Shown piece by piece: positions 9,009-29,170 of a DNA stretch of 64,000 nucleotides. Under the pieces are notes generated by a model. That model saw only the letters and a list, made by a program, of their open reading frames with translations. It did not search any database and was not told where the DNA came from. The position numbers were made by a program, and so were the translations under genes. The stretch spans positions 930,001 to 994,000 of the forward strand of contig JAYXKI010000007.1 in assembly GCA_037892935.1 (NCBI GenBank). Direction: 5' to 3'. How positions within the stretch are numbered: the stretch's first letter is position 1; every line of letters begins with the position of its first letter. Source of the DNA: Phlebopus portentosus. Taxonomy: Eukaryota > Basidiomycota > Agaricomycetes > Boletales > Boletinellaceae.

Positions 9009-10428
9009 ATGGGACAGATTAACAGTCTAAACTGCCAATGCTCCTATCATTCTCTTCGGACTCGCCATTCAGAAGAAGGCTATTGCACCTTATGCCAGGA
9101 GCGGTTCTCGAGTCTACGAGGTCGGGACATTGTGAGTCCCTTCACCGTGTTGTGATTCGATATTGACTTTGATGACCTTGTCCATCAGCCCAATGAAGAA
9201 TCGGAGGACCTCAAGAAGAAAGCTTTTACATCTAAAGAACTCAACTCAAACGAGAACATGAGAGGATTTTCTGATCGTACCCAGAGCTTACCGCAAGCCA
9301 GGTTCTATCTGCCTGTGCCCGATCTAATTTATAAATGCGAACAATGCCCACGATTCTTCTATTCAATGAAGCAGCTGTCTGAGGTTAGTTTCTATACTGT
9401 GTTCTAGACCATCAGAAATTGTTAGCTCACCGTCATGATTGCAGCATACGGCATTCCCGCAAGCTGGACACGCATGGAACGCGCGCTTCAGCGAGGTTGG
9501 AGGACCGGTTCCTGATAAGATATTCAGAGATCTCAGTATCTGCCGTATCATGGACGTATGTTGTGTTTATCTCATTGGACTGGAGAACACCGAGCCTTTC
9601 TGATTGCATCTTGACGCTCGCAGCGCCTAGATGCTTCTCTGTTGCATCTCCAGCGGCCGGAGATATCCAAGAAAGATCTGGAAACTGAACGACAACACAT
9701 TTGTTGTGTCCGCTGTGGAATATACTTCGCCTCAAGGGAGCAGAAACGCAAGGTAAGTATAGTCGAACTTATTTTTAAACTGTATTCAAGTCTCTTTCCT
9801 TCCTCAGCATTTTCGGGATGTGGAAGATTATATAATGCGCGTTGAAGCAAAGGACAACACAGTATGGGACGATGCGATCAGCATGAATAGAGAAGATCCA
9901 GCTGATCCCAAGAGTCCCCCCAGGATGCTTTTCCCACTGCCTCCTTCAATGATGGATACATCAAGCCCGACTCGGCCTTCTTCAGTTTCACGAATCCATG
10001 CCACTTCCCCGTTGTCTGATCCTCTGCCAGCCTTTCCAGCCTTCGTATCTTACAGCTCCCCATATATACCAGAACTACGTGCCGGCTTCTGTGAGATACA
10101 ACAGCTCCCGCCTCTAGCTTATCGGCTCGGTGCATCGTTCCCACATTCTAGTTTGGGGTCGAGCTCGAGCGGCCCGACAGCCAAGATGATACGCGTTTCA
10201 GATGACTTTGAATGCTCGTTGTGCCTGGAGAATGAGAAGGATGTCTCGTCCTTACCCTGTGGCCACGTTTTCGGTACTACGTACGTTAATTCCTCTAGAC
10301 ATCTTATTTCGGAGAAAATCACATTTCGCTCCAGGTGCATTTACAAGACTCTGGACTCGGATCCTCGATGCCCACTCTGCCGCAGACCGGCTGAGAGGCA
10401 CTCTGTGAAGAGGCTGCAATCTGCTTAA
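9009..10428 (+). CDS. RING-type zinc-finger protein (putative E3 ubiquitin ligase)
   Basis: Six exons (9009-9131, 9189-9383, 9445-9555, 9624-9752, 9808-10280, 10335-10428) encode 374 residues with consistent phases. The protein begins MGQINSLNCQCSYHSLRTRH; a glycine at position 2 permits, but does not prove, N-myristoylation. Three Cys pairs resemble small zinc sites: CTLC near 34, CEQC near 93 and CVRC near 163. The C-terminal RING reads CSLC, PCGHVFGTTC, CPLC. The residue between Val-Phe and Thr-Thr, normally the fifth ligand (Cys), is Gly here. Ubiquitin-ligase function is inferred from the fold only. The middle is Pro/Ser-rich and likely disordered. I know no named orthologue. Confidence 0.75.
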
Positions 10429-11223: not shown

Positions 11224-12399
11224 GTGCTCGAATTCGTGATCATTGATGTTGAATATTTTACCGCGCCGCCTCCCAATGAAGGCCATGCCATCTTCGCTAT
11301 AGACGAATTGTATAAGATCATCCAACAAATTCCAAACAGTCTCACCGTAGTGACCAACGAAGACAAACATCTGAGAGATGTTGACGAAAGTACCCTTGGA
11401 ACGGCGGCATTCATTTGCTTGACGTTATTGTCCTCTTTGAGGTTCTGCTCCGAGGATTGAAGCAAATGAAAACAGCGCGTTGAAAGTAGGTCTCATGGCT
11501 TGCTATTGAGGTTCGTTGGTGACTATTCCGTCTATTTGCTCAGACTTATATGCAGGGATATTGGAACCTCTATTGGATTGGTCTAGAACAAATACAGACG
11601 AAGAACTTTAGGAATTCTCCGAACTCTCAGGATCTTGAAAAATGCAAGAAGAATCAAGAATACCATAATCTACTACGGTCATACTTAGAGTGCCTGGAGA
11701 TTAAACTCGGATATGCAGAAGTCACAGAATCCCAAGCATCCATGAATCAATTAGATACTCACCAGCCGAATCAACTTCTGCGACCACGAGCGGAATCACA
11801 GGATAGTCGGTGTCACGCCAACGCCAAGGAACACCTGAGGCTGTGGGATCGTACCTCTTGTTAGATGGATTCAAAGCGGAAGGAAGTATCATTAGCAGAC
11901 CACTTCAATTTGAAATCGTGATATCTCTCATTCGTTTATAGGACCACCTGACTACAAACGCTTCTTAATGATAGGTGCTGTATGGTCAAAAGATGGAGAC
12001 GTTGCTTTGATGACGGCGGTGTATCAGTATGTCTAATCATGCACTCGTACGTTCTTGAACGCGATGTCTCCAGACATTTCGAGCATAGCGGGTATCAGCA
12101 TCTGATATGACCTCCTATCAAAAAACGCATGACATTGATATATGTCGGCTGACCAGAATTTCTGTACTAACTTCAAGGAAATGAATTCCCTATTCAAGAC
12201 GTATGAGGAAAGTAGGAGAAAAGACTGGTCCATCTCTGTGGGAAAAAGCCTAAATAGGAGCATAGCTGTTGTCGTGAAACATGAGGATAAAAAGGAGCAA
12301 GGTAAAGCATATGGACAAGGCTTGATGATCATTTCACAATACAGGGATGAAACTAATAAACGAGTTCAACGATTAACGAGTGAGTCACTTCAACAATAA
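11224..12399 (+). CDS. Unrecognised multi-exon gene or gene remnant
   Basis: Several plus-strand pieces have protein-like composition and fit splice signals, but they do not join into one confident model. They are: 11224-11460 (includes FAIDELYKIIQQIPNSLTVV), a piece after an acceptor near 11552 (YWNLYWIGLEQIQ, NLLRSYLECLEIKLGY), a short one near 11941-12029 (PPDYKRFLMIGAVWSKDGD), and 12160-12399 after an acceptor (NFCTNFKEMNSLFKTYEES to a stop after SESLQQ). No domain was recognised and no convincing start codon was found. It may be a decaying gene. It ends just before the 3' end of CRP-A. Confidence 0.25.
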
Positions 12400-12445
12400 T
12401 CTCGAACTATCTTTACTTCGGCAACAGCGTGTAGGGAAACCCGAA

Positions 12446-13192
12446 CTAGTTAACGGGACCAAGACGAGTGAAGAAACGTTCGTCATCGGCTACACAGAGA
12501 CCGCTGGTTATATCCAACTCGCTGATGCACGTAACGACATCGTTTCCTGCGGCGGCCTGAGAAGGAAAGTAATTAATCGAAAGAGATGAGGAAGTTATCC
12601 ATCGGAACGAATGGAAACTGACCAGATCATCCCAACAATACTCCGCGTTTGTAGTTGCCAAGTTGATGAAACCGAGCGAGCATGTATTCAAAGTAATCGC
12701 CATGAACGTATTCGGAGGAACGATGAATGTTGGACCACCAAGTGAAGAAAGGACGGCCGTGGAACCGATTAATGTGCTGCAGTCGCTAGCAGATGGCGCA
12801 GGTCCATTGTTGAAGCACCCACAGTCAGCTAAAACATCGTAAATCCAGTGAAAGCCGCGGTATTTAACGATACACGCACTTGCTGCTCCACATTGACACA
12901 CAGGATTTGGCGTCGTACATTCCGCTGCGCTACGTTCTTCAATTGATGTGCGCTTCTGCGGTGTACGCGAAAAAGTGCCGCTGGACATCGCGGCCGCCGT
13001 AAAGTTAGCATCTATGCAGGTGAATGTCTGATGCGAGATCTCATATTCATCAACAATAAAGGTTGTAGAAGAAACCTCTTGGATGGATGGGCAGTCGTTT
13101 GTCAAGAATCGGGGAGGTGAAGAGCGAATGTGAAGAACTTGAGTGGTGATTGTGTACGCAAGAAAGAGGATTTTGACGGCCAGGGGTCTCAT
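12446..13192 (-). CDS. CRP-A: secreted twelve-cysteine protein
   Basis: Three exons (13192-12880, 12828-12623, 12556-12446; 313, 206 and 111 nt) encode 209 residues. A signal peptide covers about residues 1-20 (VKILFLAYTITTQVL). The family signature follows in order: DCPS, FTC, ECTT, CQCG, DCGCF, DCSTLIGST, GPTFIVPPN, NTCSLGFINLA, YCWDD, TCIS, LCVA. That gives twelve cysteines, an even number suited to six disulfides. Intron 1 splits the protein right after CQCG, and intron 2 follows CWDDL. The central exon length is the same as in B, C, D, F and G. No known fold or enzyme motif was recognised. Secretion follows from the signal peptide and Cys content; any effector role is inference. The gene is the leftmost member of the 13-kb array. 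Confidence 0.8.
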   Translation of the reverse strand: MRPLAVKILFLAYTITTQVLHIRSSPPRFLTNDCPSIQEVSSTTFIVDEYEISHQTFTCIDANFTAAAMSSGTFSRTPQKRTSIEERSAAECTTPNPVCQCGAASACIVKYRGFHWIYDVLADCGCFNNGPAPSASDCSTLIGSTAVLSSLGGPTFIVPPNTFMAITLNTCSLGFINLATTNAEYCWDDLVSFHSFRWITSSSLSINYFPSQAAAGNDVVTCISELDITSGLCVADDERFFTRLGPVN

Positions 13193-14310
13193 ATTTGGAG
13201 ACAGCGAGACAAATCAACTCGCCCAAGAAGACACTAGTACTGAGCGTAGCTCTGAGTCTTTATACATGTCAAAAATATGCCAATGAACGACCGAAGTGCG
13301 AGCCCGGAATGGCATAGAGTCGGCAACACTACGTATCGGGCTCCGAGGATCAAGGACGTTTATAACACTCTTCTCAAGAGGATAGAGATGAGGAATTACG
13401 AAAGACGGCCTCAGTGCCTGGACACACTGAGTATGTGAAGTACGAATCGTGGTAGTTTAAGCCACGAGATGAGAAAATCCGGCAAGGCCATCGTGGTTTC
13501 ATCATGTACTATCTGAATCAGAGCGTGAAGATGGTAAAGGGACCTAGTACAGTATACATATGGTGACATTGTATTGGATGATGGAGAGAGAGAGACCTTT
13601 TTTCGGTTGTGGCCGGTAGCCCGCGGGCGTGGCCGAGCAAATAGAAAGCTCTTCACGTGACTGTACACAGCAGGAACCTCAATTTGAACTCGTTATTATT
13701 CTGCGTACAACATTATTTTTATAACCGCTAGGCGGCCTCATAGAGGCGCGTTGTAAGGACCAGGGACTCGGATGTGTCTCGACATGTCAAGAAGGCTTCG
13801 TGTGAACTGCAACGAGCGGACAAATTCTGGTTCCCAACCCGCGGAGGAAATGACGACCTCGGCCTTCGAGATGCCATGAAGCGTTCTGCTAGGCACCTTT
13901 GCTGGTAAATACCTTTACTTTACTAATGGATTCTCTGATATATTTGGCTAATTGCACTTCATACGATGATGGGCATGACTGTGGGTGTTTCCCGAAGCGG
14001 GTCGTCTCAAGTTTCTTGAGAACATTTCAGTATGACCTTCAAATTGCGTTTGACGATAATGGACTATTTGCAGGTCTTCGAATGGTCAATCTTCGGGTCA
14101 GAAAGTAATCGATTTGCTTCTATGCAGGCACCCAAGCCATCTCTCTGATCGCCTGTCCACGGAGATCGGACGTCGTTGAAAGCTTGAAACGGAACTTTGT
14201 AAACTTTACGTCTACTATTCACAACCTTGGGTGAAAAATACATAAGTGAATACTCTAATACGCCTCGAATGTGTAGCCAGACTACCAGGCCAGATCTCGG
14301 CTTTGTGGAC
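13193..14310. other. Divergent spacer between CRP-A and CRP-B
   Basis: CRP-A (-) and CRP-B (+) are read away from this 1.1-kb spacer, which should hold both promoters. A TATAAA-type site on the minus strand (about 13258-13263) lies about 70 bp before the CRP-A ATG. No further gene was seen. Confidence 0.5.
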
Positions 14311-15046
14311 ATGTCGAAGCTCTACATCGCTAAACTGCTTACTCTTGCATGTGCCATTGGTGCACAAGCACTTCACGTACGCTCTCTTCCGCGTTCTGTT
14401 ACAGACGTTTGTCCTGGTGCTCAGGAGATCGAATCGTCCACCTTTAACGTCAATGACCTTGAATTCGTGCGCCAGACGTTTGTTTGCCCCAATGGCAACT
14501 TCAATGTCGAGGCTTTTTCCAATACCAACTCGGCAAGCTCAATTTCGCACCTTTCTTCCCTTGAAGCACGTAGTCAGGCGGAGTGCACGACACCTGCGAC
14601 TACATGCCAGTGCGGAACTGCGGGTAAGATTACCATCACCGACTAATTGATTTGATTCTAACAACTCGTATTCCAGTTGATTGTGCTTGCTTTACTGACG
14701 GTATCGCCCCATCCACAAGCGACTGCAGAACTTTGATTGGTTCAACGAGCGTGATCGCTTCGACGCAAGGCCCGACCTTCATGATCCAACCAAATACTCT
14801 CCACGCCATAACTTTGAACACCTGCACACTCGGTTTTCTCAATCTGGCGAGCTTTGCTGAAGAGTTTTGCTGGGACGACCTCGTCAGATATATTCCTTGT
14901 ATCACGCCTCCACTCAAGACTGACTCCATTGTATTCTACAGGCTAGTCAGGCTAATACTGTCGTGGGATGTTTCCCTGGTCTGACGAGCGGATTTTGCTT
15001 AAGCAATAATCAGCGTTATCTCACGCGCTTGGGCCATTCGACCTGA
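14311..15046 (+). CDS. CRP-B: secreted twelve-cysteine protein
   Basis: Three exons (14311-14623, 14677-14882, 14942-15046; 313, 206 and 105 nt) give 207 residues. A signal peptide is evident (LYIAKLLTLACAIGAQAL). The ordered motifs are VCPG, FVCP, ECTT, CQCG, DCACF, DCRTLIGSTS, GPTFMIQPN, NTCTLGFLNLA, FCWDDL, GCFPG and FCLS, so all twelve family cysteines are kept. Exons 1 and 2 have the same lengths as in CRP-A, and both proteins start with a short Leu-His-x-Arg-Ser mature N-terminus, so A and B are the closest pair among the divergent members. They are divergently transcribed from a shared spacer. No known domain was recognised. An in-frame ATG at or near 14272 exists, but the signal peptide starts only at 14311. 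Confidence 0.8.
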
Positions 15047-15495
15047 GGAGAAGTACAGTGTATACCTACATATACGGCGGCTTGTCTTTGTTCTAAAGCG
15101 CATGCTTTGTGTGAATAAGTTTTGTTGGAAAGCCGATTATTGAGCATTTGTATAAACGAACAGTCTTCAAATATTTGACAGTGTGAACCGTAGCTTTCTC
15201 AGGCACGGTGATCTGGAGATGAGCCGAATAGATAACTTACGAGTATATTCAGAAAGGTGCATACACTTGCGTGAGGAAATGGGTTTCACGTCCTTCTCTA
15301 CATCGTCTCTATCGGAAATCTGCAGGGATGGTCGAACAGCTGGAATCGAAAAGCGAATTTTATCTTCCTCTGGATTCGCAGTGTTTTGCGTTTACTGTAA
15401 GTGATTTCTTGTCGGCTCTTCTCGAGGTTCGTGACAGTTCGCACTACGAAACATACGTCCTCAGATTTCTGTCTACGTCCTAATATAATAAAAAA
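15047..15495. other. Spacer between convergent CRP-B and CRP-C
   Basis: About 450 bp between the two 3' ends. Only weak open frames occur; nothing could be supported. Confidence 0.5.
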
Positions 15496-16236
15496 TTAAG
15501 ACGAAGACGAGTGTCCGATACGTATAAGAAAGAAACCGTCAGTGGCAACGCATACACCACTCGAAGAGCCCTGAAGAAAGCATCCTGAACCGATACGGCT
15601 CGCACTTGCCTATAATGTAAAAGTGAAAAGTATAAGTCTTATGTCAAGGGTATGAATCATGAAGGGAATTCACGAAGTCATCCCAGCAGAACTCTGTGGC
15701 AATACTCGCTAGGTTTGCAAAGGCGATAGAGCATGTCTGGAAAGTGACCACCTCCACGTTTGCCGGAGGAATGAAGAATGTCGCACCCTCTATTTCGGAG
15801 AGGATACCCGTGGAGTTGATCAGCGTTGTGCAGTCACTTGTCGACGGCACTGTCCCGCCTGCCAGACACGAACATTGTGCTGGAACGAAGAAACGGTTCG
15901 TTTGTTAATATCAACTCGCATAATTGAGTAAACAAAATTACAGCCCATGCCGCACTGGCAATTAGGAGCTGGAACGGTGCACTCATCAGAGCTTCGGCCT
16001 TCAAGGGGTGGATTAGGACGAAGGTTTCTTGCTGAAGATGCATTTGAAGTGTGCGCATCCGAGATGCCGTTTGAACATGCGAATGTTTGGCGCAATATTT
16101 CTCGTCCTTCATGAGTAATGGTAGATGAAGCAACTTCTACTGGGAACGGACAGAGAGTAGACGTCGCAAGTGCATTCGTCACGATTACGTGGGCTAAGCT
16201 TGGGGCGGTAATCAGTAGAAAGATAGTGACTTTCAT
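15496..16236 (-). CDS. CRP-C: secreted twelve-cysteine protein
   Basis: Three exons (16236-15942, 15879-15674, 15609-15496; 295, 206 and 114 nt) encode 204 residues. The signal peptide is KVTIFLLITAPSLAHVIV. Family motifs in order are LCPF, FACS, ECTV, CQCG, QCSCL, DCTTLINSTG, ATFFIPPAN, QTCSIAFANLA, FCWDDF, GCFLQ and VCVA, again with twelve cysteines. It is the most divergent intact member: exon 1 is shorter by six or nine codons, and the protein ends in a Ser-rich tail instead of the usual hydrophobic one. A TATAAATA site on the minus strand (about 16292-16301) lies about 60 bp upstream of the ATG. It is convergent with CRP-B and divergent from CRP-D. Confidence 0.78.
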
Positions 16237-16424
16237 CGATGAAGCACGATAAACGAGAGGGGTTAGATGAGAATATCTCATGGTCTTACAAGGTTTATTT
16301 ATAGAAGCAAAGGTGATGGCATCAACTTCTTTTGAAATAGAGCTGGCAAAAATAAAGTCAAAACACCTCTCAGTAAATGATAGGTTCCTGAGAGGGAGGG
16401 ACCGAATCGAATTGCGCAAGATTT

Positions 16425-16740
16425 CCGTTGCCAAAGGCGGAACTTGAGGTTTATCAAGATCATACGAAGCTGTGGGTCAGTGACACGACGGGGGTTAACA
16501 AGTAGCCAGAGGAGGATGTAGCGCATCGTTTGACGTGTTCCTAGACAAGGAAGATACGAACCACAAGGCCTAGATGAGGTCGGATAGGAATACGAGTAGT
16601 CGCGGTAGGTCCGCGCTGATTGAAGTGATTTTTCAGAGTCTTGGGCGGATCTCAATTGTCCTTCTGCGAGTTCTGAGGAGGATGAGTCACCATTGTCCGC
16701 CCTTGTGAGTCTCAGAAGTACGCATGTAGGAAAAAGGCTT
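16425..16740 (+). repeat. CRP-array intergenic repeat, copy R1
   Basis: Shares ordered blocks with R2 and R3: GCGGAACTTGAGGTT, AGTAGCCAGAGGAGGA, TAGATGAGGTCGGATAGGAA, and TTCTGCGAGTTCTGAGGAGG. It lies upstream of CRP-D. A minus-strand open frame across it (16299-16796) is not conserved in the other copies, so I read it as non-coding. Confidence 0.6.
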
Positions 16741-17415
16741 CGAAGAGATACGCAGTGAGCCCTAACGTGAACAAGGCGAAAATGTTGCACGAGCATGGTT
16801 CTCGGCGAGAAAATGATAAGGACTTAGTGGTCAGATTGTCCAGTCGAGCCTGACTCAAATCCCGCGATGTTCTCCTGGACTATAACTTCGTAGAATCCTC
16901 ATAAAGTGCGCATCTGGATTGTCGCATAATTTCTTGTAACAAATTTTAACATTTCAAAAAGGTCAGTACTATTTGTTAGTTGAGATGACCCGAGTCATCA
17001 CGCACTTGGAAGACTCACTGCACCAGCTGTCAAGATATTGTCAATTGCAGCATGCTCATGCTCACCAGAATGTATCGTCGAAAATTTTCCGCTTCTGTCT
17101 GGCATGTATATGCGATCGAAGAAGTTGCTTAGCTCCGATGGCTCAAACAAGAGGTATCCGGCAATACCAGTCACCAGGTCCGCGCTGCGAAAATGTTGTT
17201 ACGTAGTCTTCTCTGATTAGATCAAGGTACTTAAAATAGATGATCACGAACCTGAAAGAGGTAGTAAAGAGTGTCTTTTATCAGTGAAGCATAAATTTCA
17301 AATATAATATTTTTGGGAATACTGATTCAGCAGTGTAGAGATAAGTCGGGCCCAAGATTCCTGAAGCATGGCGTCAAATGGTTGCTGCTTGAAAAGATTT
17401 GTAACCGAGCCTCAA
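16741..17415. other. Upstream region of CRP-D
   Basis: No gene was recognised between repeat R1 and the CRP-D core promoter. Short open frames look random. Confidence 0.45.
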
Positions 17416-17422
17416 TATAAAA
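17416..17422 (+). promoter_or_regulatory. TATA box of CRP-D
   Basis: TATAAAA lies 83 bp before the ATG and is followed by ACACCGATACTTCAGC and later ACGTACTCTTTCAGTTCTC. Closely similar elements lie at matching distances before CRP-F (and, for the TATA, CRP-G). Confidence 0.6.
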
Positions 17423-17498
17423 CACCGATACTTCAGCTTAAGCTTTACACCAGAGGCGATAAACGTACTCTTTCAGTTCTCGCAGTTCCGCACCCATA

Positions 17499-18250
17499 AT
17501 GAAGCTCTTCACTGTCCAGCTATTCGTCGTCGTTGGCGCATTGAGTGCTTTTGCTTCAAGCATTCGCGCAGGCTCCATCCCCCAAAGCCTAGCGGATGCA
17601 TGTCCTTCCGTGCAGGTGGTCAGCTCATCGACCATCACCATCGATGGTCAAGAAATTGTGCGCCAGGTATTCTCGTGCCCCGGCGGAAACCTCACGGCTC
17701 TGGCAATACCCGAGGCCAGCCTTATTCCCTCCAGCGCCATCGCTGAACGCTCGGTGATCGAAGCGCGTAGCGCAGCAGAATGTACGACTCCAGCTTCAGA
17801 ATGCCAGTGTGGCCAGCCAGGTGAGACGGATTTTACATACCAGATAGTGCTATGGTAGTTAACATACTTGTATTCTCAGCTATTTGCGGCTGTTTCGGTG
17901 AGACCGTTGGGTCGAACCCAAGTGACTGCACCGCATTGCTAGGCTCATTGCCTGTCATCTCGTCCATCTCTGGCCCGACATTCATTATACAGCCGGGAAC
18001 AGTACACACAACTTCCCTAAGGACCTGCTCTGTCAGCTTCACCAATCTAGGTTCGACAGCCGAGGAATTTTGTTGGGATGATCTGGTAAGTAGTATAAGT
18101 TCGCCTGTTCTAAAGCAACCTAACCCACTTCTATTTTGCCTTCAGGGAACGCTAGCGAGTAACCAAATATTTTGTATCAACGAGGGCGGCGAAACGGTGT
18201 GCGCGGCAGAGAATCAGCGTTTTGTTGTCCATCTGGGTGCCACAGTGTGA
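17499..18250 (+). CDS. CRP-D: secreted twelve-cysteine protein (type member)
   Basis: Three exons (17499-17820, 17880-18085, 18146-18250; 322, 206 and 105 nt) encode 210 residues. The signal peptide is about residues 1-20 (LFTVQLFVVVGALSAFA). Cysteines fall at 35, 60, 95, 102, 104, 110, 112, 124, 157, 172, 186 and 195. Conserved motifs are IVRQVFSCPGG, ARSAAECTTP, CQCG, ICGCFGETV, DCTALLGSLPVIS, GPTFIIQPGTVHTTSLRTC, SFTNLG and EEFCWDDL. The end, RFVVHLGA, is shared with F and G. It has exactly the architecture of CRP-F (same three exon lengths). No enzymatic motif was seen. The strong TATA box and conserved leader suggest regulated, possibly high, expression, but this is not shown. It is the first of four tandem plus-strand copies. 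Confidence 0.85.
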
Positions 18251-19332
18251 TAGAATAGTGCCATACGCGTTGCAAGTATATTAGTCGTGAATGTTTTGAG
18301 ATCATCGCAAGGTGTATAAACGGGTCAGTTATCCAACTGTGTCTTTGAGCTGTTCGAATGTGCGAGAAAGAAAAAAGACGCCTCATGTTGAGGCCCTCAC
18401 CTTTCTGCAGAGTGTCTATAAGCCACAACAATTGAGGTGTACGGAAGAGCTTTGAGATGGCAATTCCAAAAGGCCAGATACAGGAGTTGAAAATGGCGGA
18501 GCTAGTGATGCTCCTCTGATGGAGTGGGCGGGCGAATCAGAATCGGAGTGCAAAATTTCGAATATTACGTGATCCAGCCTCAAAGAGGCCAGCACCAGTG
18601 AGCAGTGAGACGATCTTATCCATAACACATTTGCGAATCGCATTGTCCTGGGCACTTATTTACGCACCAACAAAATGATAGAGTCTGTTCGACTGCAGCA
18701 TGATGCAAGTGTCTTACCGCTGAGGTGGACCATGTGGAATCACGATACGTCTGAGCTGATTTTCAACTTGGCCCAACTGTTGCTGCTGCAGCAGTACGAT
18801 ATCAATACACAGGATAAACATTTCCAGAAGTGCACCAAATGCTTGAAGGTGCGCATATTCAGAATCGGATCGTGAGAGACCATAAGGCACTTTTCTTGAC
18901 AGAGTTGACGACAGAACACGAGCGAGAAGCCGAACAGACTGTAGCTTCGCAGAATGTCAATAATAGAAGAATGGCTCTAGTACTCTACTTATCGAATATT
19001 GAATGTCAAATAGGTCAAAACCATATGTTAGCGGGACAATCGCATATTACATCTGCAAATTTCATTACTCCAGGCGCCTGCCATTTTTTGGTGTTCTACC
19101 TAGAAGACTTCCTTGAACACTGAGCCGGACCATTGTGCTTCCCTTCGAGTGTATTCCAAGGCCTAGAATAAATGACGGAAGACCCAGCGATCCTCTAACA
19201 GCCGTCTTTCCAATATCCAGATAAATTTGTCGCAAAAAAAAAATATTATTCAAGAGTCAGCATTTCTCCAACCAAGAATTTACTCCAGAGACGATCACAC
19301 GTACTCTTTCAGCTCTCACAATTTGTAACCTC
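18251..19332. other. Spacer between CRP-D and pseudogene CRP-E
   Basis: No gene was recognised. Close to CRP-E the leader element ACGTACTCTTTCAG is still present (about 19298-19311), showing that the duplicated unit included the 5' leader. Confidence 0.45.
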
Positions 19333-19994
19333 AAGGAAGAGCTCCGTCGCTCAGTTATTCATCCTCGCAAGTGCTTTCGCATTAAGCATCTGCACAGGGT
19401 CCATTCCGAAAAGCATCGTAGTTGCTTGTACTCCTGCTCACGAGGTCGGCTCTTCGTCGATCACTGTCGATGGTCGACATCGTGCGTCAGGTATTCTCGT
19501 GCACAAACGGCACCCTCACGGCTCCAGCGATACCCGAGACCGCCCTTATCCCCTCCAGTGCGATTGTTGAGCGCTCAATGGTTCGAACCGCGCAGTGCAT
19601 CCGAACGTACAACTTCAGGTTCTGAATGCCAATGTGGTCAGCCTGGTAAGTGAGCTTTTATAGCAGAAGGCGCCGTGCTTTTGACATATTCCTAGTCCCA
19701 GTTGATTGCGGCTGCTTCTCGGAGGCTCCGAGCGACTGCACTTCATTTCTCAGTGCTCTGCCTGTCATTTTGTCTATTGAGGGCCTAACCTTCATCATCC
19801 AGCCGACGACAATGCCAACACTGAAGTCCAATACCTGCGCGGTCAGCTTCACCAGTCTAGGTTCAACTCCCGAGGAGTACTGCTGGGATGACCTGATAAG
19901 AGGAGTAAGTTGCATTGACGGCAGCGACCGAAAGAACGTCGCTTGCATCGGAACAAATCAACGTTTTGAACTCCATATGGGACTCGATGCTTGA
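19333..19994 (+). pseudogene. CRP-E: dead copy of the CRP-D type
   Basis: The position of the family ATG reads AAGG, so the start codon is lost. Exon 1 (about 19333-19645) carries at least two frame changes; one is a two-base loss next to TGTCGATGGTC. The exon 1 donor is intact. Exon 2 (19702-19895) is 194 nt, four codons shorter, and still reads DCGCFSEAPSDC through EEYCWDDL. The intron 2 donor is ATAAGA instead of GTAAGT, and intron 2 plus the first codons of exon 3 are deleted, so the frame runs straight into SCIDGSDRKNVACIG, NQRFELHMG and a stop. The copy cannot make a normal precursor. Confidence 0.8.
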
Positions 19995-20394
19995 CTGATT
20001 GTAAACACTTTGGCCACAAAAACATCAGCTCTGAAGTTTCAGTAAAGGTCGCGCAGGGGGGTGTCATAGTTGATCGGAAATGCCTTAGCGCGTTGCGAAT
20101 TTGTTTGTGTCTTGAATCGTTACCAAAAAAGAGCAGAAGTTGTGGGAAAATTTACGCGTCCGGACAAATCCATAGAAAAGTACCAAATAACGAGTTACAG
20201 CGGTGGTGGTGCAAAAGTAACGATTCAGCCTCGGAGATGAATGGGACGCTGCACGTGACCGTGACCATAAAGCGTAACGACATTTTGTGCGAAACATGTG
20301 AATAAACCTTCACCATCCAGCTCATCGATTTCTGTCCGCTAACTAATAGTTTCGCATTTGCTACAGCTACCACTGAATTGTCAACTTACAAGAG
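19995..20394. other. Spacer downstream of CRP-E
   Basis: Nothing was recognised in these 400 bp. Confidence 0.4.
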
Positions 20395-20625
20395 AAAACC
20401 ATTGCCAAAGACGGAACTCCCGAGTATGCGAAAAACTGTTCTCGAGTATTTCGGAAGGAATTTGTCTAGTAGCCAGAGGAGGACATACGTAGTCCATAGA
20501 TTGATGCGTGATCAGACACAGAACACACGAAAGTTCTTGATGAGGTTGGATAGATCTCCTGTTCCGACTCAAACGGCCTTTTTCGAATCCTTGCGCAGAA
20601 CATTGTGATCATTCCGCGAGGAAGA
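20395..20625 (+). repeat. CRP-array intergenic repeat, copy R2
   Basis: Contains AAAGACGGAACT, TAGTAGCCAGAGGAGGA, TTGATGAGGTTGGATAG and TCCTTGCGCAGAACA in the same order as R1 and R3. A further block (CTGCGAGATCCGAGGAGGAT, about 20926-20945) lies apart from it, so this copy has been interrupted or rearranged. It lies upstream of CRP-F. Confidence 0.55.
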
Positions 20626-21970
20626 GTCACCGTCGACCAATCTTACAGAAGGGACCATCTGAGAAGCTAAGCCCAAAGCCTGAAAGAGATGTGCGCTGAT
20701 CCCTGCTGAAATCGCTGCATGGACGCGGCTCTCCGCAAAATATTGATAAGGACCTAGTGGCCGAGCCTGAGTTAAACATTGCGGAGCTCCCCTCGAATAA
20801 AATCCGCGTAAAGAGCGTGCTTCACCTATCACGCAAGTGCTTAGAATTCCAGTAGATCAACAACGTTTACTAGTGAGGTACTCCGTGCAGTCTTTGCGCG
20901 GCATTGCGTTGATTACTGTGGTACTGCGAGATCCGAGGAGGATGATTCACTATTATCAGCCCTTCTCAATTTTGCAGGCAGGCAGTTGGATGTCGATTGT
21001 TCAAGGGACCGTGAAATAGAATCGCGGAAAGAGGCTTTCAAGGAGACCATCTCTTTATTTTTCAAACTCCGATCGCGAACCATCGGTCTTGACTGATGGA
21101 TTCGTGATGGTCAGTAAAATCGATACATGTGGTAATCATTAGCCTTCAGCGGATCCTGCACACTCCAGCACAACGGCACACTATGGAAAACACCCATGTC
21201 AATTGCCCATCGCTCACTGACTGACCAAAATTGAAAAGGGCTGTTAACTAATTTTGCAGTCGTAGTCATTGATGTGCATCGTGGATGCACCTTGTGGAAG
21301 CGTATATGCAGCCACAAGACACATCATGTGGACGAAGATTTACGGGAGAGTCGGATTGCTGCATGTTCACAGTCCCTCACGGGGAAACAGCGATGGGTGT
21401 GGTGGCGCCTTGATTTTGACCAGTTCAGCTCAAAGGTAACTTTTCAGAACTTCTCAAATATCTAATAATCCTACAGACTCGAACACTCTCGCGTTTACCG
21501 GTCCCAAATGAGCGTAAATTCATAATCCATACAATCGAAATTGAAGGACTCTCGACAAAATTACCTAGCATGTTTGATTCGATGGTCACAATCATCATTG
21601 CGGTTTGTCCATATCATTCACAATGAGTAGCCAGCATTTCGACGAGTCGAAAATGCTTGCGTAATGTGATCATGCAAATTTCTCGTGGGAGAAGTCCACA
21701 ACGGGACACAGGGCAAGGAGTTGATCGCGAAACCCTAATGCGTGTAAAACATCGCTTTTACCCGAAAAGAGAAGATGCCAAAATAATATTATCCTAAAGC
21801 AATGCAGGGGTGCATCTCAAAGAGTTCTGAGGCACTGGAAGTCAAAGCTCGGTCTCTCCTTGTCTTGCTCAATTTTGAAGAATCAAAGATCCTTGGGTAG
21901 CGGACTAGCCAAAATCCAGGATGATATCCATATGGCTTTACCGTCTGAATATGTTGTTATGCATTGTCTA
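20626..21970. other. Upstream region of CRP-F
   Basis: No gene was recognised; several short plus-strand frames look random. It holds the displaced R2 block near 20926-20980. Confidence 0.4.
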
Positions 21971-21976
21971 TATAAA
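21971..21976 (+). promoter_or_regulatory. TATA box of CRP-F
   Basis: TATAAA lies 90 bp before the ATG, followed by CCACCAGTATTTCAGCC. It matches the CRP-D element in spacing and flanks. The leader ACGTACTCTTTCAGTTCTCA follows near 22019-22038. Confidence 0.6.
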
Positions 21977-22060
21977 CCACCAGTATTTCAGCCAGAGAAT
22001 CTCAACAAGGGCAATACAACGTACTCTTTCAGTTCTCACAACTCTGCATCCGCAACCGCA

Positions 22061-22823
22061 ATGAAGCTTTTCACTGCTCAGCTATTTGTCCTCGCAAGCT
22101 CCTTGACCAGCTTTGCTGTAAGCATTCGCACTGGCTCCATTCCGCAGAGTCTGGCGGATGCTTGTCCTTCCGCGCATGTAGTCAGTTCGTCGACAATCAT
22201 CGTCGATGGTCAAGACATCGTACGCCAGGTGTTCTCGTGCCCCGACGGCAACCTCACCGTTCCAGCGATACCCGAGGCCAACCTTATTCCCTCCAGCAAC
22301 ATCGCTCAGCGCTCGGCGGTTGAAGCGCGCAGCGCGGCAGAATGCACAACTCCAGCTGCTGAGTGCCAGTGTGGTCAGGCTGGTAAGTAATCCTTTTGCT
22401 GACCAATTACTGTTTATCAGGAAATGTGGTCATTTTGACAATTTTCATTTTCCAGTTATTTGTGGCTGTTTCGGTGACACCGTCGCGCAGACCGCGGCCG
22501 ACTGCACTGCTCTGATTGGCTCGTTGCCTGTTATTTCGTCCATCGCTGGACCGACGTTCATTGTACAACCGGGAACAGTGCACACAACGTCGCTGAGGAC
22601 CTGCTCAGTCAGCTTCACTAATCTAGGGTCGACACCTGAGGAGTTCTGTTGGGATGACTTGGTAAGTGGTATGAACTGGCTTTTAATGAATCTAACTCAC
22701 ATCCTTTAATCTCTTCAGGCAACCCAGGCGAATAGCGAAATAGCTTGCATTAACCAGAGGAATGAAGCTACATGCGTGGCAGAAACTCAGCGTTTTGTGA
22801 TCCACATGGGCGTCGCCGTTTGA
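22061..22823 (+). CDS. CRP-F: secreted twelve-cysteine protein
   Basis: Three exons (22061-22382, 22456-22661, 22719-22823; 322, 206 and 105 nt) encode 210 residues, the same plan as CRP-D. The signal peptide is LFTAQLFVLASSLTSFAV. The motifs IVRQVFSCPDG, ARSAAECTTP, CQCG, ICGCFGDTV, DCTALIGSLPVIS, GPTFIVQPGTVHTTSLRTC and EEFCWDDL closely match D, and all twelve cysteines are present. Most differences from D are conservative, which indicates recent duplication with the protein maintained. An upstream in-frame extension exists, but the ATG at 22061 aligns with the paralogues and begins the signal peptide. No known domain. Confidence 0.85.
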
Positions 22824-23035
22824 AGGGTCGCAGAAAGACATCCTCCATGGAGATCCCCCTCCAGTTTTCTGGAGATGAACGTACAGGACCAGTGTGGTAT
22901 ATATATTTTGGGATTACAACTTAGTCTATAAATGTGTCTCCTGAATGTGCATAGAGTGCTACCAGAAATTTTTTATTCAGATGCCTATATTGTCTGAGTA
23001 GTAACGAGTAACCCATCTCAGACGAAGGAAATGAG

Positions 23036-23713
23036 TCATGCTTTTGCGGAGAGTTTATAAGAAACAATGCATGAAATCAAATCTCGAAAGACAATGACCA
23101 AGTGCCGCGATGACCGAGGATGAAGGTGGAACGAAAAAGAAATCGAGGCCAGATCGATCCTGAGTCTTGGCAAGTAACGTTGCTTGCTTGTGACAGTGCC
23201 TTTTCTTCTCACGCTCGTCCTCAGTCTATAATCATCCGGGGTGAAACCCTGGATGCTGAACAGAACTTCAAGACACGAGTCAATCTGGCCGGAAAGTGAA
23301 GCATAGGGTTCTGAAGCTACTACTTGCCGTATTCTTCTCGACTCTCGACTCGAATATTTCATGAATACGATCCTTTGTCTTTCAGGGACTTTCCATCGCA
23401 GGGAGAGATTTTCCTTCTTGGAAACTCCAGGCTCAGATTTATGAGATGACCTCCTTGAGACAGTCGTCGAAGTCGTCACAGACGTACTGAACAGTTTCGA
23501 GCTAAACGGACAGCTGCAAAAGCCACGGGAATACTCAGTCATCCTTTCCATGCTCGTGAATCCCAAAGAGACTTCGCGTCTTGTGGGCCAATGCTGCTTG
23601 ATCCTCGAGCTCTGCGTGAATAACAATGGGTTACATAAGTTACGTCTTCTGCGGCTTGACGTATTTCGAAGTGATGCGACTTGGCTGCACAGGTTGTGTA
23701 AAAGGACTCGCAA
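23036..23713 (-). other. 225-codon open frame of doubtful coding value
   Basis: A continuous minus-strand frame, rich in Arg and Ser, with no recognisable domain, signal peptide or splice pattern, downstream of CRP-F. Its composition (many Arg/Ser codons) resembles a chance frame opposite other sequence, and no related frame was seen beside the other CRP genes. Listed because of its length only. Confidence 0.12.
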
Positions 23714-23744
23714 AGAAGAAAGTTATTTGAGTAAAGCAAGACTT

Positions 23745-24030
23745 CTTTTACTGAAGACGGAACTTGAGGTTAATCACGATCATGAGAAGTAGTCATTCAG
23801 GAACGCACCGGAAGTTGTCAAGTAACCAAAGGAGATATACAATCAATCGGTTGACGTGTCCCGGGAGAAAGAATACACGAAGTATATCTTCTACATGAGG
23901 TTAGATAGGAATAACAGTTGTCCTGCCACAGGTAGGTTCGAATTTACCGCGGTGTTGAATCAACTTCTACGAAGTCTTGCGCGGAACAGACATTTGCTTC
24001 TGCGACTTCCGAGGAGATGACTCACCAGTG
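23745..24030 (+). repeat. CRP-array intergenic repeat, copy R3
   Basis: Contains GACGGAACTTGAGGTTAATC, TCAAGTAACCAAAGGAGAT, ACATGAGGTTAGATAGGAAT and TTCTGCGACTTCCGAGGAGA, in the same order as R1. It lies upstream of CRP-G, so D, F and G each have a copy upstream. Confidence 0.6.
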
Positions 24031-24807
24031 AGTAATTTGTAAAACGAGGTCAGCGGGGCACTTCATGAGAGGACTTATCAGGTCATAAGGTCGCATTGCA
24101 GAAGGAGAGAGAATGCCCGTGGGTTCTAAGGGGAGACTTGTCACAAACGCGAGGATTTCGGTAAGATTGATTTCGTTCTGGGCACCGGTTTCCTTCGAGA
24201 TTAACTTAAGTGAAATCGAGAAGTCAGTACCATTCGCCCTTTTGGTAACTCCCGTTTCCCCGTGACCTATCGGGGAGAGAGACCTGATGCGTTCCCAAGA
24301 ATATCCTTAATTCCGATAATAGGCACAGTAGCCTGCTACGCCGAGCACACCGGCCATAGGTTCCTACGGAAGCTGAATCTTCCAGTCTTGTCGTTCTCAT
24401 TTCTCACGAAGGAAGGACAGGGTAAGAACTCAGGTCGAGGGGAGGGTCGGGAACTCGAAAATGCGATGTCCAAGTGATCTTTCCGCGGGTAAAGCCTTAG
24501 TTCTCTTCAGAATACTTTCCAGCAGTGGTCCAAGGTCGTGTTCAGGTCGCCACATTGCGATTCTCTGAGCGTACATCAGTGTTATGTGTAAAAATAGATG
24601 AGCTGTCGTAAAACTGAGTCGGAATAGTGATGCCTTCCGTCAAATCGGGGAAGTCAAATTTCAATCACGGTTTTTGTTAGTCCCTTCAAATCTCAAAATG
24701 TCGAAGATCCTTGAATAGCGGGATTTCCAAGATGCTGCAGGTCGTCTAATAATATCCATGCAGCTCTGTTGCTTGAGTCGGACTTTCTTTCTAGTTATTC
24801 GAGAACG
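24031..24807. other. Upstream region of CRP-G
   Basis: No gene was recognised. Confidence 0.4.
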
Positions 24808-24814
24808 TATAAAA
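24808..24814 (+). promoter_or_regulatory. TATA box of CRP-G
   Basis: TATAAAA lies 86 bp before the ATG, followed by ACCGCCAGTCATTTAG, aligned with the CRP-D and CRP-F elements. The leader downstream has diverged (ACATACACTTCAACGC). Confidence 0.55.
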
Positions 24815-24893
24815 ACCGCCAGTCATTTAGTGAAACGTTTACTCCAGAGACGAAAAGACATACACTTCAACGCTAGCAGCTCTACACCCCGCA

Positions 24894-25653
24894 ATGAAGC
24901 TCTTCACTTCTCAGCTACTCATCCTCGCGAGTTCTTTGAGCGCTTTTGCTCTAAGCATTCGCTCTGGTCTCGTTCCGCAGGAAGTGGCGAATGCATGCCC
25001 CTCTGCGCAAGTGCTCAGCTCGTCTACAATCAGCGTCGATGGCCAGGATGTTGTGCGCCAGGTGCTCTCGTGCCCAGGCGGCAACTTCACGTCATCGCTC
25101 CGAGCTGTCGATAGAACGCTTTCCTCCAGGGCCTCGTCGAGTACTCGGCCATTGAAGCACGAAGCGCTGCCGAATGCACCACTCCGGCCACCGAATGCCA
25201 ATGTGGTCAACCTGGTAAGAGAAGTTCTACCAAGGACAGCTTACTGGATTCGCTGACGAGTTCTCTTCACTCTCAGTTATATGTGGCTGCTTTGGCGAAA
25301 CCGTTGGGCCCAGCGCTGCCGACTGCACCGCACTGATTGGCTCGTTGCCGGTAATCGCATCCATTACAGGCCCGACCTTCATTATTCAGCCAGGAACAGT
25401 GCACACGACTTCTTTGAGGACCTGTGCCATCAGCTTCACCAATCTAGGTGAGACTCCAGAGGAATTCTGCTGGGACGATTTGGTAAGTACATTCTGACGG
25501 TAGATTGAATATCTGCTCACCCTTCTCTCTCTTTACCTAAAGGCGAGTCAGGCGAACGGAGAAATGAGCTGCATGAGTTCGCCACCCTTCAGCAGTGCGG
25601 TCTGTATGGCAGAGACTCAGCGTTTTGTCTTCCATCTTGGGGAAGCCGTTTGA
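24894..25653 (+). pseudogene. CRP-G: CRP-D type copy with a one-base frameshift in exon 1
   Basis: Exons are 24894-25214, 25277-25482 and 25543-25653 (321, 206 and 111 nt). Exon 1 is one base shorter than the 322 nt of D and F. The frame changes between the VLSCPGGNFT stretch and SAIEARSAAECTTP, near 25150. Read with the shift, the protein has all twelve cysteines, including CQCG, ICGCFGETV, DCTALIGSLPVI, EEFCWDDL and a two-residue-longer tail. Read literally, it terminates early in exon 2. All splice sites, the TATA box and the signal peptide are intact. Either a very young pseudogene or a sequencing/assembly error; the rest of the gene shows no decay. Confidence 0.7.
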
Positions 25654-26090
25654 AGGGCTTCAAGTATGTGGACTCGAGTATCAGAGCTCAGATGCCGAGT
25701 GATGAGAGTCGAAGTGCGCTTATGGTGTAGGATTTAATACACGATCATTCCCTGTGTCGAGCTCACGTTTGTATGAGCCATCCGCTGCCATCGGGCCTGA
25801 ATGAACTTGCATTGTTGTCTGAGAACGATTCTTCGAGCTTCAAAGTTACAGTTGTTCGCATAGAGCAAGATTCTTCAAGCTGAGCTGCTCTTCGGGCTTT
25901 GCCCTCATCATGGCAAAGAGAAGTGTCAGCGTAGACAAATTGAGTTCCCCACGCATGTCAGTTTCGGTCACGTAGACGCGTCGCGTCGCGTCACACTCTA
26001 GCGTTCAAGCGAGATGCACAAAACTTGCTTTCTGTTCACCACGACAATCGACTAGCGGTCCCTAACTCTCTGATAAAAAAAAATCAAATA
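25654..26090. other. Intergenic, end of the CRP array
   Basis: About 440 bp with no gene. It includes a short CG-rich run (GACGCGTCGCGTCGCGTCAC near 25974-25993). Confidence 0.45.
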
Positions 26091-26663
26091 ATGGACACGG
26101 AGATAAACTCTCAGCCTCGAGTGAACTCAGCTCGCCTCGGTGATTTTGTCGGACGTATCGTGAGGCTCGTTTGCAAAGTCGAGAGGGTGCGCTTTCCTTC
26201 GTTCCTCTGCGTCAGTACGATGTTGAGTCTTAGTTCTTATTATCTTTTGCACGTTGCAGATAAAAGTCAACTCTGCCATTGTGCGTGCGTCGGACCATGG
26301 CCAGATTGAAGTTACTAGTACGATGCCTTTGGTATGTCTGGCCCCCACACAACCCCCCCTTTGACTGTTGGCTATTTCGCCCCTGTCCATGCCCCCAGCG
26401 CCTGATGTGCCTAATGTGAAATCTTCTTTTGTGAATTCAAGGAAGAGCAAATTTCGGGCACGTTCGTCGAGTTCATTGGGAGCGTTGAGGACTCGAGCAC
26501 TGTGAAGATGCAAGCGTGCATCCTCTTGGAACTGACCTAGGTGAGTAATCCTTGCATCTTTGTGAGCCAACGCCTAATGTCTTCCATGAACAACGAAGAT
26601 ATGGATCTGATCAACGATTGTATCAACATGACGCACGATCCGCGATTTCAGAATATCTTCTAA
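26091..26663 (+). CDS. RPA3: Replication protein A 14-kDa subunit (RPA3), with a one-base frameshift
   Basis: Exons are 26091-26186, 26260-26331, 26442-26540 and 26599-26663. The pieces read PRVNSARLGDFVGRIVRLVC, VNSAIVRASDHGQIEV, FVEFIGSVEDSSTVKMQACI and DMDLINDCINMTHDPRFQNI. This is the single OB fold of the smallest RPA subunit, which with RPA1 and RPA2 coats single-stranded DNA in replication and repair. Exon 3 as given runs ILLELT and then a stop. One extra G in the TTGG run near 26527-26530 would give ILLGTDL, restore the phase across the last intron and make the protein a normal length. The subunit is generally essential, so a base-calling or assembly error is the likeliest reason. Confidence 0.8.
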
Positions 26664-27022: not shown

Positions 27023-29170
27023 TCAGTCCTCCAGGAAGAAGTAGTTTGCCCGATGCTGAACAAGTCAAGTCAGCAGGACGTAAAGAAGAGCGAGACACAA
27101 AACAACACACCCTTCTGTTCCTTATCCTTGACACTGTTCAGCTTGTTCACCCGCGGGCGGAAGTTCGTCGGGTCACGTCTGAAGGTAATCCGAAGAGACG
27201 CAAGGAACCTATTCATTCCCGTCAAAAGCGATTGCGGAGGCGTCGCCGTCGCTGATATAGCAGGCTTGCCCTCAAATACGATGACGCGGTCGGCGAGATA
27301 GGTGGCCATGATGAAGTCGTGCTCGATGACAAATGCGGTCTTCTTTGAGTGGAGGACAAATCGCTTGATGACTTTGCTTGCGATGATACGTTGTTCGGAG
27401 TCGAGGAAGCTGAAAGCGTGATACGCGTGAGTCACAAGAGAGAGAAAAAGAAACAGGAATGGGGGAAACACACGAGGAAGGTTCATCAATGAGATACACC
27501 TGAACGTTCGGCTTTCCGAGCGCAAGGACGATAGCGACTCGCTGGAGTTCACCACCAGATAGAGTCTTAACCTCCTGGTCCATGATATTATCCAAACTCA
27601 TCGGCTTAAGTACCTCCGTCTGGAACTGCGGATGCATGAATGCCTGTTTGATCTGCTTCAGCAGCAACATTCGGACCGTTCCAGGGAATCTGGGAGCGAT
27701 AGCCTGAGGTTTGAGCGACACTGCGAAGCTCTGTTTGTCTGTCGCGACGTCGGGCGTATCACCTGCAAGCAGCCTTACGAAAGTCGTTTTACCAGTTCCG
27801 TTCTCGCCCAACATGACGATGATCTCGGAGTCGGTGAAGGAACCCCCCTCAACAGTAAGTTTGAACGACCCATTCGTCTTTGTCATGGCTGGGTAGGAAT
27901 AATGTCGTGTCTTCTCTGCGACGAGTTCTTCGGCCGTTTCGACCATCTTGAAGGAAAGCTGCTCCTCGCGGAAACGCAAGTTCTCCGTCGGGATGAAACC
28001 GTCTAAGAAAATATTGATACCTTCCCGTACCGAGTACGGCATCGTCACGACACCATACATCGACGGTTTGCCGTATATGCAGCAAATGAAGTCGGATAGG
28101 TAGTCGAGTACGGAAAGATCGTGTTCTACAGCGATCACGTAGTTGTCTGGTCGGAGTAGAGAACGGATCACCTCAGCGGCCCTTAGACGCTGTCTGACAT
28201 CCAGATAACTTGACGGCTCGTCAAACATGTATACGTCCGCACGCTGGATGCACGACATAGCGATTGCGAATCGCTGAAGTTCTCCGCCCGAGAGCTGGCC
28301 AACCTGCCGATCAAGAACCTCGTTCAACTCTAGTACATCGCACATTTCCTGCTTGTTGTCGAGCTCTAGTTTCGAGTCAAGCATTTGGGAGACTGTCAGC
28401 TCGCCCTTGATTGCTCGAGGAATGTGGTCTACATATTGTGGTTTGATGAGTGCCTTGAGATTGTCCTCTAAGACTTTAGTGAAATAATTTTGCAATTCCG
28501 AGCCTCGGAAGTACTTGAGGATTTCCTGCCAATCTGGAGGGTCCTGGTCGCCACGGTCAACTGGGTATGTAAACATGCGTAGAGTATGGACAGCTCACGT
28601 CATATCTCCCGAGATTAGGCTTGAGCTTCCCCGCAAGGATTTTTAGCGCTGTGCTCTTCCCAATACCGTTCGTACCGACTAACCCTAATACCTGGCCTGG
28701 TCGTGGCGTAGGTAAACGATGCAGCTTGAAAGCGTTAGCGGTGTATCGATGGGTAACTTGCGACTCTAGATCTGTTGGCAGGTTGATGATGGCAATGGCA
28801 TCGAAGGGACATCTACAGAATGATTGGTCAAATGGGTTGAAAGTGGAGGTAGGGCATATGCAAGCACTTTTTGACGCAAATACCGCATCCTATACATAAA
28901 TATTCTGAGATGAAGGCCATCTTGTCTGTTGGCTTCACTTCAATGCAGAGCTTTCCTGCATCCCTGTAAGCACAAGTTTCCGGGTCGATTTAGCTCAACT
29001 CACCCATTTTATTAACGGGACATGACTACGAGGGCATACAGTCAGGCTGACGTACTACAGTATAAAACTTTGATCGATGGGATACTCACTTTTTTGCACT
29101 CCAGTGCGCATCGTTTTGGCTTGCATCTGTTTGCGTCGACAATGGCGATTCGAGTGATTTTGTCTGCCAT
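27023..29170 (-). CDS. RLI1: ABC ATPase RLI1/ABCE1, ribosome recycling factor
   Basis: Seven exons (29170-29090, 29025-29004, 28955-28868, 28812-28599, 28543-27474, 27409-27109, 27055-27023) encode 602 residues, close to the family's usual 600-610. The N-terminus has the two 4Fe-4S motifs: [14 protein letters not shown] with PVNKMGKLC, then [12 protein letters not shown]. Two ABC domains follow: Walker [10 protein letters not shown] and GENGTGKTT, signatures [12 protein letters not shown] and [12 protein letters not shown], Walker B regions [10 protein letters not shown] and LIDEPSS. The C-terminus ends NYFFLED, reached through a last intron whose donor is GTGTTG; a donor two bases upstream would lose this conserved end. 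The protein splits post-termination ribosomes and aids initiation and 40S export in the cytosol. Intact. Confidence 0.95.

Follow-up and report, generated by a model that had tools for sequence, protein, structure and literature searches.

Seven copies of a cysteine-rich gene family form an array at 12446..25653 of a 64,000-nucleotide stretch (the window) of contig JAYXKI010000007.1, assembly GCA_037892935.1. We interpret the family as a Hymenochaetales branch of secreted proteins with a KP4/Hce2 fold. Its members carry an extra N-terminal piece and additional cysteines, and most of the aligned relatives, but not the clade of the array, have a likely Kex2 site. We put the probability at about 0.6 that its members are two-part secreted proteins with a KP4/Hce2-type fold, released by Kex2 in the branch that carries a dibasic site and acting on other organisms. 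The analysis itself established how the genes are built, the pattern of cysteines, the fold prediction, the spread across the genome and across taxa, and where the dibasic site occurs; secretion, cleavage, disulfide bonds, target, and activity are inferred.

A structure model (md407215cd58e) was built from P0001, the database counterpart of gene F of the array. The family model matched Zt-KP4-1 of Zymoseptoria tritici (PDB 8acx) at 14-17% identity, and its predicted fold is the same as that of this solved Hce2-domain protein. On the strength of the model, the main domain is very probably an alpha/beta sandwich of the KP4/Hce2 type. It differs from Zt-KP4-1 in having an additional N-terminal cysteine piece, ten cysteines within the domain and, in most relatives, the dibasic site. 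Zt-KP4, Gnk-2, SMKT, and toxic mushroom lectins are described as structurally similar alpha/beta-sandwich proteins in the accessible text of PMC13211469, and the available part of PMC10462633 lists the KP4/ginkbilobin-2 fold among the families found in all 20 fungi surveyed. Through Zt-KP4-1, the modeled domain would thus share a fold class with the KP4 killer toxin of the Ustilago maydis virus and its fungal homologues (PMC13211469 and PMC10462633, same portions). Unlike KP4, the genes described here are chromosomal, multicopy, and intron bearing, and the KP4 Pfam model matched none of 35 members at an E value of 10. The mushroom Y3 glycan-binding protein and the lectin of L. decastes gave weaker structure matches than Zt-KP4-1.

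Profile searches pointed to the same family. PF14856 (Hce2, of the Ecp2-type effectors) was the sole Pfam family to match more than one member, with full-length matches in 11 of 35 proteins (P0014, P0018, P0022-P0025, P0029-P0032, and P0038; best E value, 0.0093 at 16.6 bits). When isolated C-terminal domains were used, 9 of 10 matched (best E value, 0.0029), whereas shuffled versions of the ten domains with cysteines fixed in place gave 0 matches in 20; all ten domains are of the dibasic type, and seven of them also match Hce2 at full length. The PDB annotates Zt-KP4-1 as an Hce2 domain-containing protein, according to the accessible portion of PMC11952758, and sequence and structure therefore indicate the same family. 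These recurrent matches are weak and are confined to profile positions 1-66 of 103, leaving the last third of the model unmatched, and the curated cutoff is 25 bits. Since they are partial and below the cutoff, we do not file the family as Hce2. An earlier note on this DNA, made from the sequence alone, had called the family unrecognized. That description holds by sequence, as no reported Pfam score reaches its cutoff; essentially only the fold is shared, so that no named family fits by sequence. It does not hold by fold, and a match to a characterized family, which the note had named beforehand as evidence against its proposal, was found at that level only. As far as the model can tell, the family appears to be a new offshoot of known killer/effector-fold proteins rather than something wholly unprecedented.

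Several other candidates were set aside. At an E value of 10, MtaB, OpcA_G6PD_C, and DUF1263 each matched one member and DUF4723 matched a single isolated domain, all in a chance-like manner; even at this setting, the HMMER filters discard most matches above about 0.1. NCBIfam gave no match for the 4 proteins searched. The UniRef name of P0001 opens with "Extracellular membrane protein," which we take to be the CFEM name, and P0029 and P0039 are labeled Cyanovirin-N in UniRef; neither CFEM nor Cyanovirin-N had a Pfam match in the 35 members.

The array itself is a real seven-copy family, and the limits proposed for it in the earlier note are exact. Models of A, B, C, D, and F, built by hand from the DNA, are three-exon genes with open frames whose products share twelve cysteines in one common order. 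Exon 2 is 206 nucleotides long in all five, and their ten introns span 51-73 nucleotides. Product D matched the other six copies with best E values from 2.5e-47 (F) to 1.3e-15 (C), far from chance. A count of twelve cysteines per intact member, as first proposed, applies to A, C, D, and F, while B has 13. All five proteins have a hydrophobic N-terminal stretch (best 11-residue mean hydropathy, 1.81-2.56), which supports, but does not prove, the proposed signal peptide and secretion; in protein F, a later stretch is slightly more hydrophobic. Copy E is dead, as had been claimed: its aligned place has no start codon, its exon 1 is scattered over three frames, and its third cysteine is gone. At 19650-19994 on the forward strand, exons 2 and 3 are fused in one open frame in which the second intron is missing. 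The suspected frameshift in copy G is also present, with exon 1 broken in the linker-coding stretch and exons 2 and 3 open; P0006 of S. weigelae is an intact orthologue.

Database searches yielded 50 related proteins (P0001-P0050). All named hosts are Hymenochaetales, namely, Sanghuangporus, Fomitiporia, Coniferiporia, Phellinidium, and Pyrrhoderma (Hymenochaetaceae) and Schizopora (Schizoporaceae), and the remaining relatives come from environmental sequences with no named host. Because the searches register only proteins that share five-letter words, and because the second one was limited to the 7999 candidates with the most words in common, they do not show that the family is absent outside the listed genera. 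Alignment A5 comprises 35 of the 50 proteins; fragments, long mis-models, and deleted forms (15 proteins: P0007, P0008, P0009, P0011, P0012, P0021, P0027, and P0043-P0050) were left out. Each of the twelve cysteine columns is cysteine in every row that covers it (34/34 or 35/35). The CWDD motif, by contrast, is not invariant as had been stated, since CWDE and CWEN occur in the wider family. An extra cysteine at A5 column 242 in seven rows (P0026, P0033, P0034, and P0037-P0040) is a possible thirteenth position of one subgroup.

The product of gene A agrees with P0002 (S. sanghuang ACEPAF_1411) at 208 of 209 residues, and those of D and F are identical to P0004 at 191 of 210 and to P0001 (labeled S. 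baumii) at 206 of 210 residues, respectively. The near-identity of A and F to these database proteins identifies the source of the window as a species of Sanghuangporus (Hymenochaetaceae). A tree was built from 45 rows (34 of the A5 rows, omitting the fragment P0026, and 11 models from the own genome). In it, the partners of F and D are S. baumii records, that of B is P0005 of S. weigelae, and that of A is from S. sanghuang; at least F, D, and B therefore predate the split of these records. Gene C, the most divergent member, has no close counterpart in the 35 rows of A5; it forms a long branch whose place is uncertain and whose join may be false. A strongly supported branch (100/99) separates the array type, together with a copy from C11, from the rest.

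Within its own genome, the family extends beyond the array. Searching 38.37 Mb in 23 contigs identified at least 20 loci with both main exons: seven in the array, one at C7:521k, four at C11:415-421k, and eight at C12:646-709k. Five more short matches (four on C12 and one on C15; best E values, 6e-8 to 0.005) may be fragments. Six of the eight C12 copies were modeled, four of these with three introns; the seven in which the exon was read have CWDE in six cases and CSDE in one. The second cluster, at C11:414500-422500, is heavily decayed, with frame breaks or lost cysteines in three of its four copies, and the fourth models cleanly with 12 cysteines. Cysteines have been lost in E, in C11 copies, and in the C12:662k copy, where one cysteine of CQC is replaced to give CQY. 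The lone divergent copy at C7:520500-524000, about 420 kb from the array, has a KR site and an uncertain gene structure. These results bear out a cysteine-rich, probably secreted, and locally expanded family.

The two branches differ at the end of the linker. In 27 of the 35 A5 rows, [KR]R immediately precedes [NS]xxEC; the site occurs in 27 of 28 rows outside the array type and in none of the seven array-type rows (P0001-P0006 and P0042). Two of these seven retain a KR upstream in the linker, namely P0042 and P0002, which corresponds to gene A, and gene A itself keeps KR a few residues upstream of the dibasic position. In the own genome, the site is present in six of eight C12 copies and is missing from A, B, C, D, and F. 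We propose that the array proteins are apparently secreted and built of two parts joined by a variable linker: a small hairpin at the N terminus, which has one pair of cysteines, and a C-terminal domain containing ten, predicted to form an alpha/beta sandwich of the KP4/Hce2 type. The other branch includes most C12 copies and the relatives from other genera; its linker terminates at a Kex2-like dibasic site, and the Golgi protease should therefore remove the N-terminal piece as a propeptide, which would free the C-terminal domain. Array-type proteins do not have this exact site and so would probably be released uncut or be cut elsewhere. Yeast killer toxins are matured by Kex2, and for K2 there is evidence of cleavage at monobasic sites (accessible part of PMC13211469); loss of the dibasic site need not, therefore, abolish cutting.

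A number of observations weigh against this reading. Foldseek with a first, weaker model gave nothing significant, and 8acx was not among the matches listed; likewise, nothing significant was found among the viral predicted structures of BFVD, where viral KP4 was not among the matches listed. Every reported Hce2 score is below the cutoff (highest, 17.3 bits), and the array type had no Hce2 match (none of its 7 A5 rows and none of the five window proteins A, B, C, D, and F). When PDB sequences were searched with the family profiles A1, A3, A5, and A7, no KP4 or Hce2 chain and nothing credible appeared. The Hce2 model had no match in the own genome, but control genomes were silent too, making this result uninformative. 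The dibasic site is missing from two of the eight C12 copies (652k and 708k) and from P0014. No [KR]R lies within the C-terminal domain in the 35 rows; because composition predicts just 1.3, this absence gives no support for cleavage. Finally, the fold class serves very different jobs.

Selection was examined by NG86, which was computable for three of ten gene pairs, the other seven being saturated. D and F differ by a nonsynonymous divergence (dN) of 0.141 and a synonymous divergence (dS) of 0.748 (dN/dS, 0.19), indicating purifying selection on these sequences overall; the 28-codon linker alone gave a dN of 0.142 and a dS of 0.339. The ratios for B-F (0.18) and C-F (0.24) come with a dS above 2.5, leaving D-F alone trustworthy.

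Like its nearest structural relatives, the domain most likely works extracellularly on another organism's surface, most plausibly that of competing or nonself fungi in wood. We consider action against other fungi about an even chance. Hce2 and KP4-type genes are induced in the nonself response of Podospora (available text of PMC3689799). The proteins could instead be effectors of a parasitic wood rotter that disturb cells of the living tree, like the Ecp2/Hce2 effectors of leaf pathogens. We regard this as possible but clearly less probable. In its favor, Zt-KP4-1, the nearest structural relative, is a plant-pathogen effector, and Sanghuangporus species are given as parasitic in a table in the accessible part of PMC10410303. 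The purifying selection on D and F speaks against such a role, although a single pair of paralogues cannot reveal individual arms-race sites. The family is present in Coniferiporia and Pyrrhoderma, genera that include pathogens, yet Schizopora paradoxa, a dead-wood saprotroph, carries at least two members (P0025 and P0038).

Defense lectins against grazers such as nematodes or insects, along the lines of Coprinus comatus Y3 and the lectin of L. decastes, are unlikely, since the structure scores of these lectins fall below that of Zt-KP4-1 and a piece that can be cut off at a dibasic site is closer to killer-toxin maturation. Somewhat less likely still are self-acting cell wall, adhesion, or fruit-body proteins whose redundancy would lie behind the change in copy number and the decay; the decay of E, G, and three of the four C11 copies is as compatible with a dispensable structural function as with one in conflict, but the Pfam scan of 35 members found no anchor, repeat, or cell wall domain, and the fold class in the accessible text of PMC13211469 comprises cytotoxic proteins and lectins. 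We consider it improbable that the family is unrelated to Hce2/KP4 and that its fold match reflects chance resemblance in a small and common alpha/beta arrangement, even though identity to Zt-KP4 is low, the Hce2 scores are subthreshold, and the array type has no Hce2 match.

If the proposal of a two-part KP4/Hce2-fold protein is correct, this fold would extend to an unannotated multicopy family in six genera of one order of wood-decay fungi and tree pathogens, and annotators would gain a profile where none exists. It would also offer a testable idea of Kex2-matured secreted antagonism proteins, with one clade having dropped the cleavage site. More speculatively, and doubtful at present, the Hymenochaetales may hold a chromosomal killer toxin-like arsenal of two processing classes, one released by Kex2 and the other, the array class, having lost the site and retaining the N-terminal piece, perhaps as a built-in inhibitor or targeting part, with birth-and-death clusters serving as strain-specific weapons in mycelial combat. 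In the literature on Sanghuangporus and Hymenochaetales in our limited library, we noticed nothing on this family, and we do not claim its absence from print: the available part of PMC10410303 treats small secreted proteins only in bulk, and the terms Hce2, Ecp2, KP4, cyanovirin, and CFEM do not occur in the main text of PMC11446221, which deals with a related species.

Table 1. Copies of the family in the array and nearby features, in window coordinates (boundaries of copy G were read by eye).
Feature	Strand	Span	Exons	Product or remark
Gene A	-	12446..13192	13192-12880, 12828-12623, 12556-12446	209 residues, 12 Cys
Gene B	+		14311-14623, 14677-14882, 14942-15046	207 residues, 13 Cys, one in signal-peptide region
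Gene C	-	15496..16236	16236-15942, 15879-15674, 15609-15496	204 residues, 12 Cys
Gene D	+		17499-17820, 17880-18085, 18146-18250	210 residues, 12 Cys
Copy E	+	19346..19994		dead
Gene F	+		22061-22382, 22456-22661, 22719-22823	210 residues, 12 Cys
Copy G	+	24894..25653	24894 to ~25214, 25277-25482, 25543-25653	
Direct repeat		16416-16514 and 23736-23834		99 nucleotides
Left open reading frame	+	9763-10425		
Right open reading frame	-	27275-28594		

Beyond the family genes, the only repeat in 12000-26500 was the one direct pair, which is 73% identical and lies outside the modeled genes; two intergenic stretches, each taken singly, had no internal repeats. To the left of the array, the open reading frame contains a RING finger domain, and the one to the right has two stretches matching an ABC-transporter ATPase and appears RLI1/ABCE1-like by eye.
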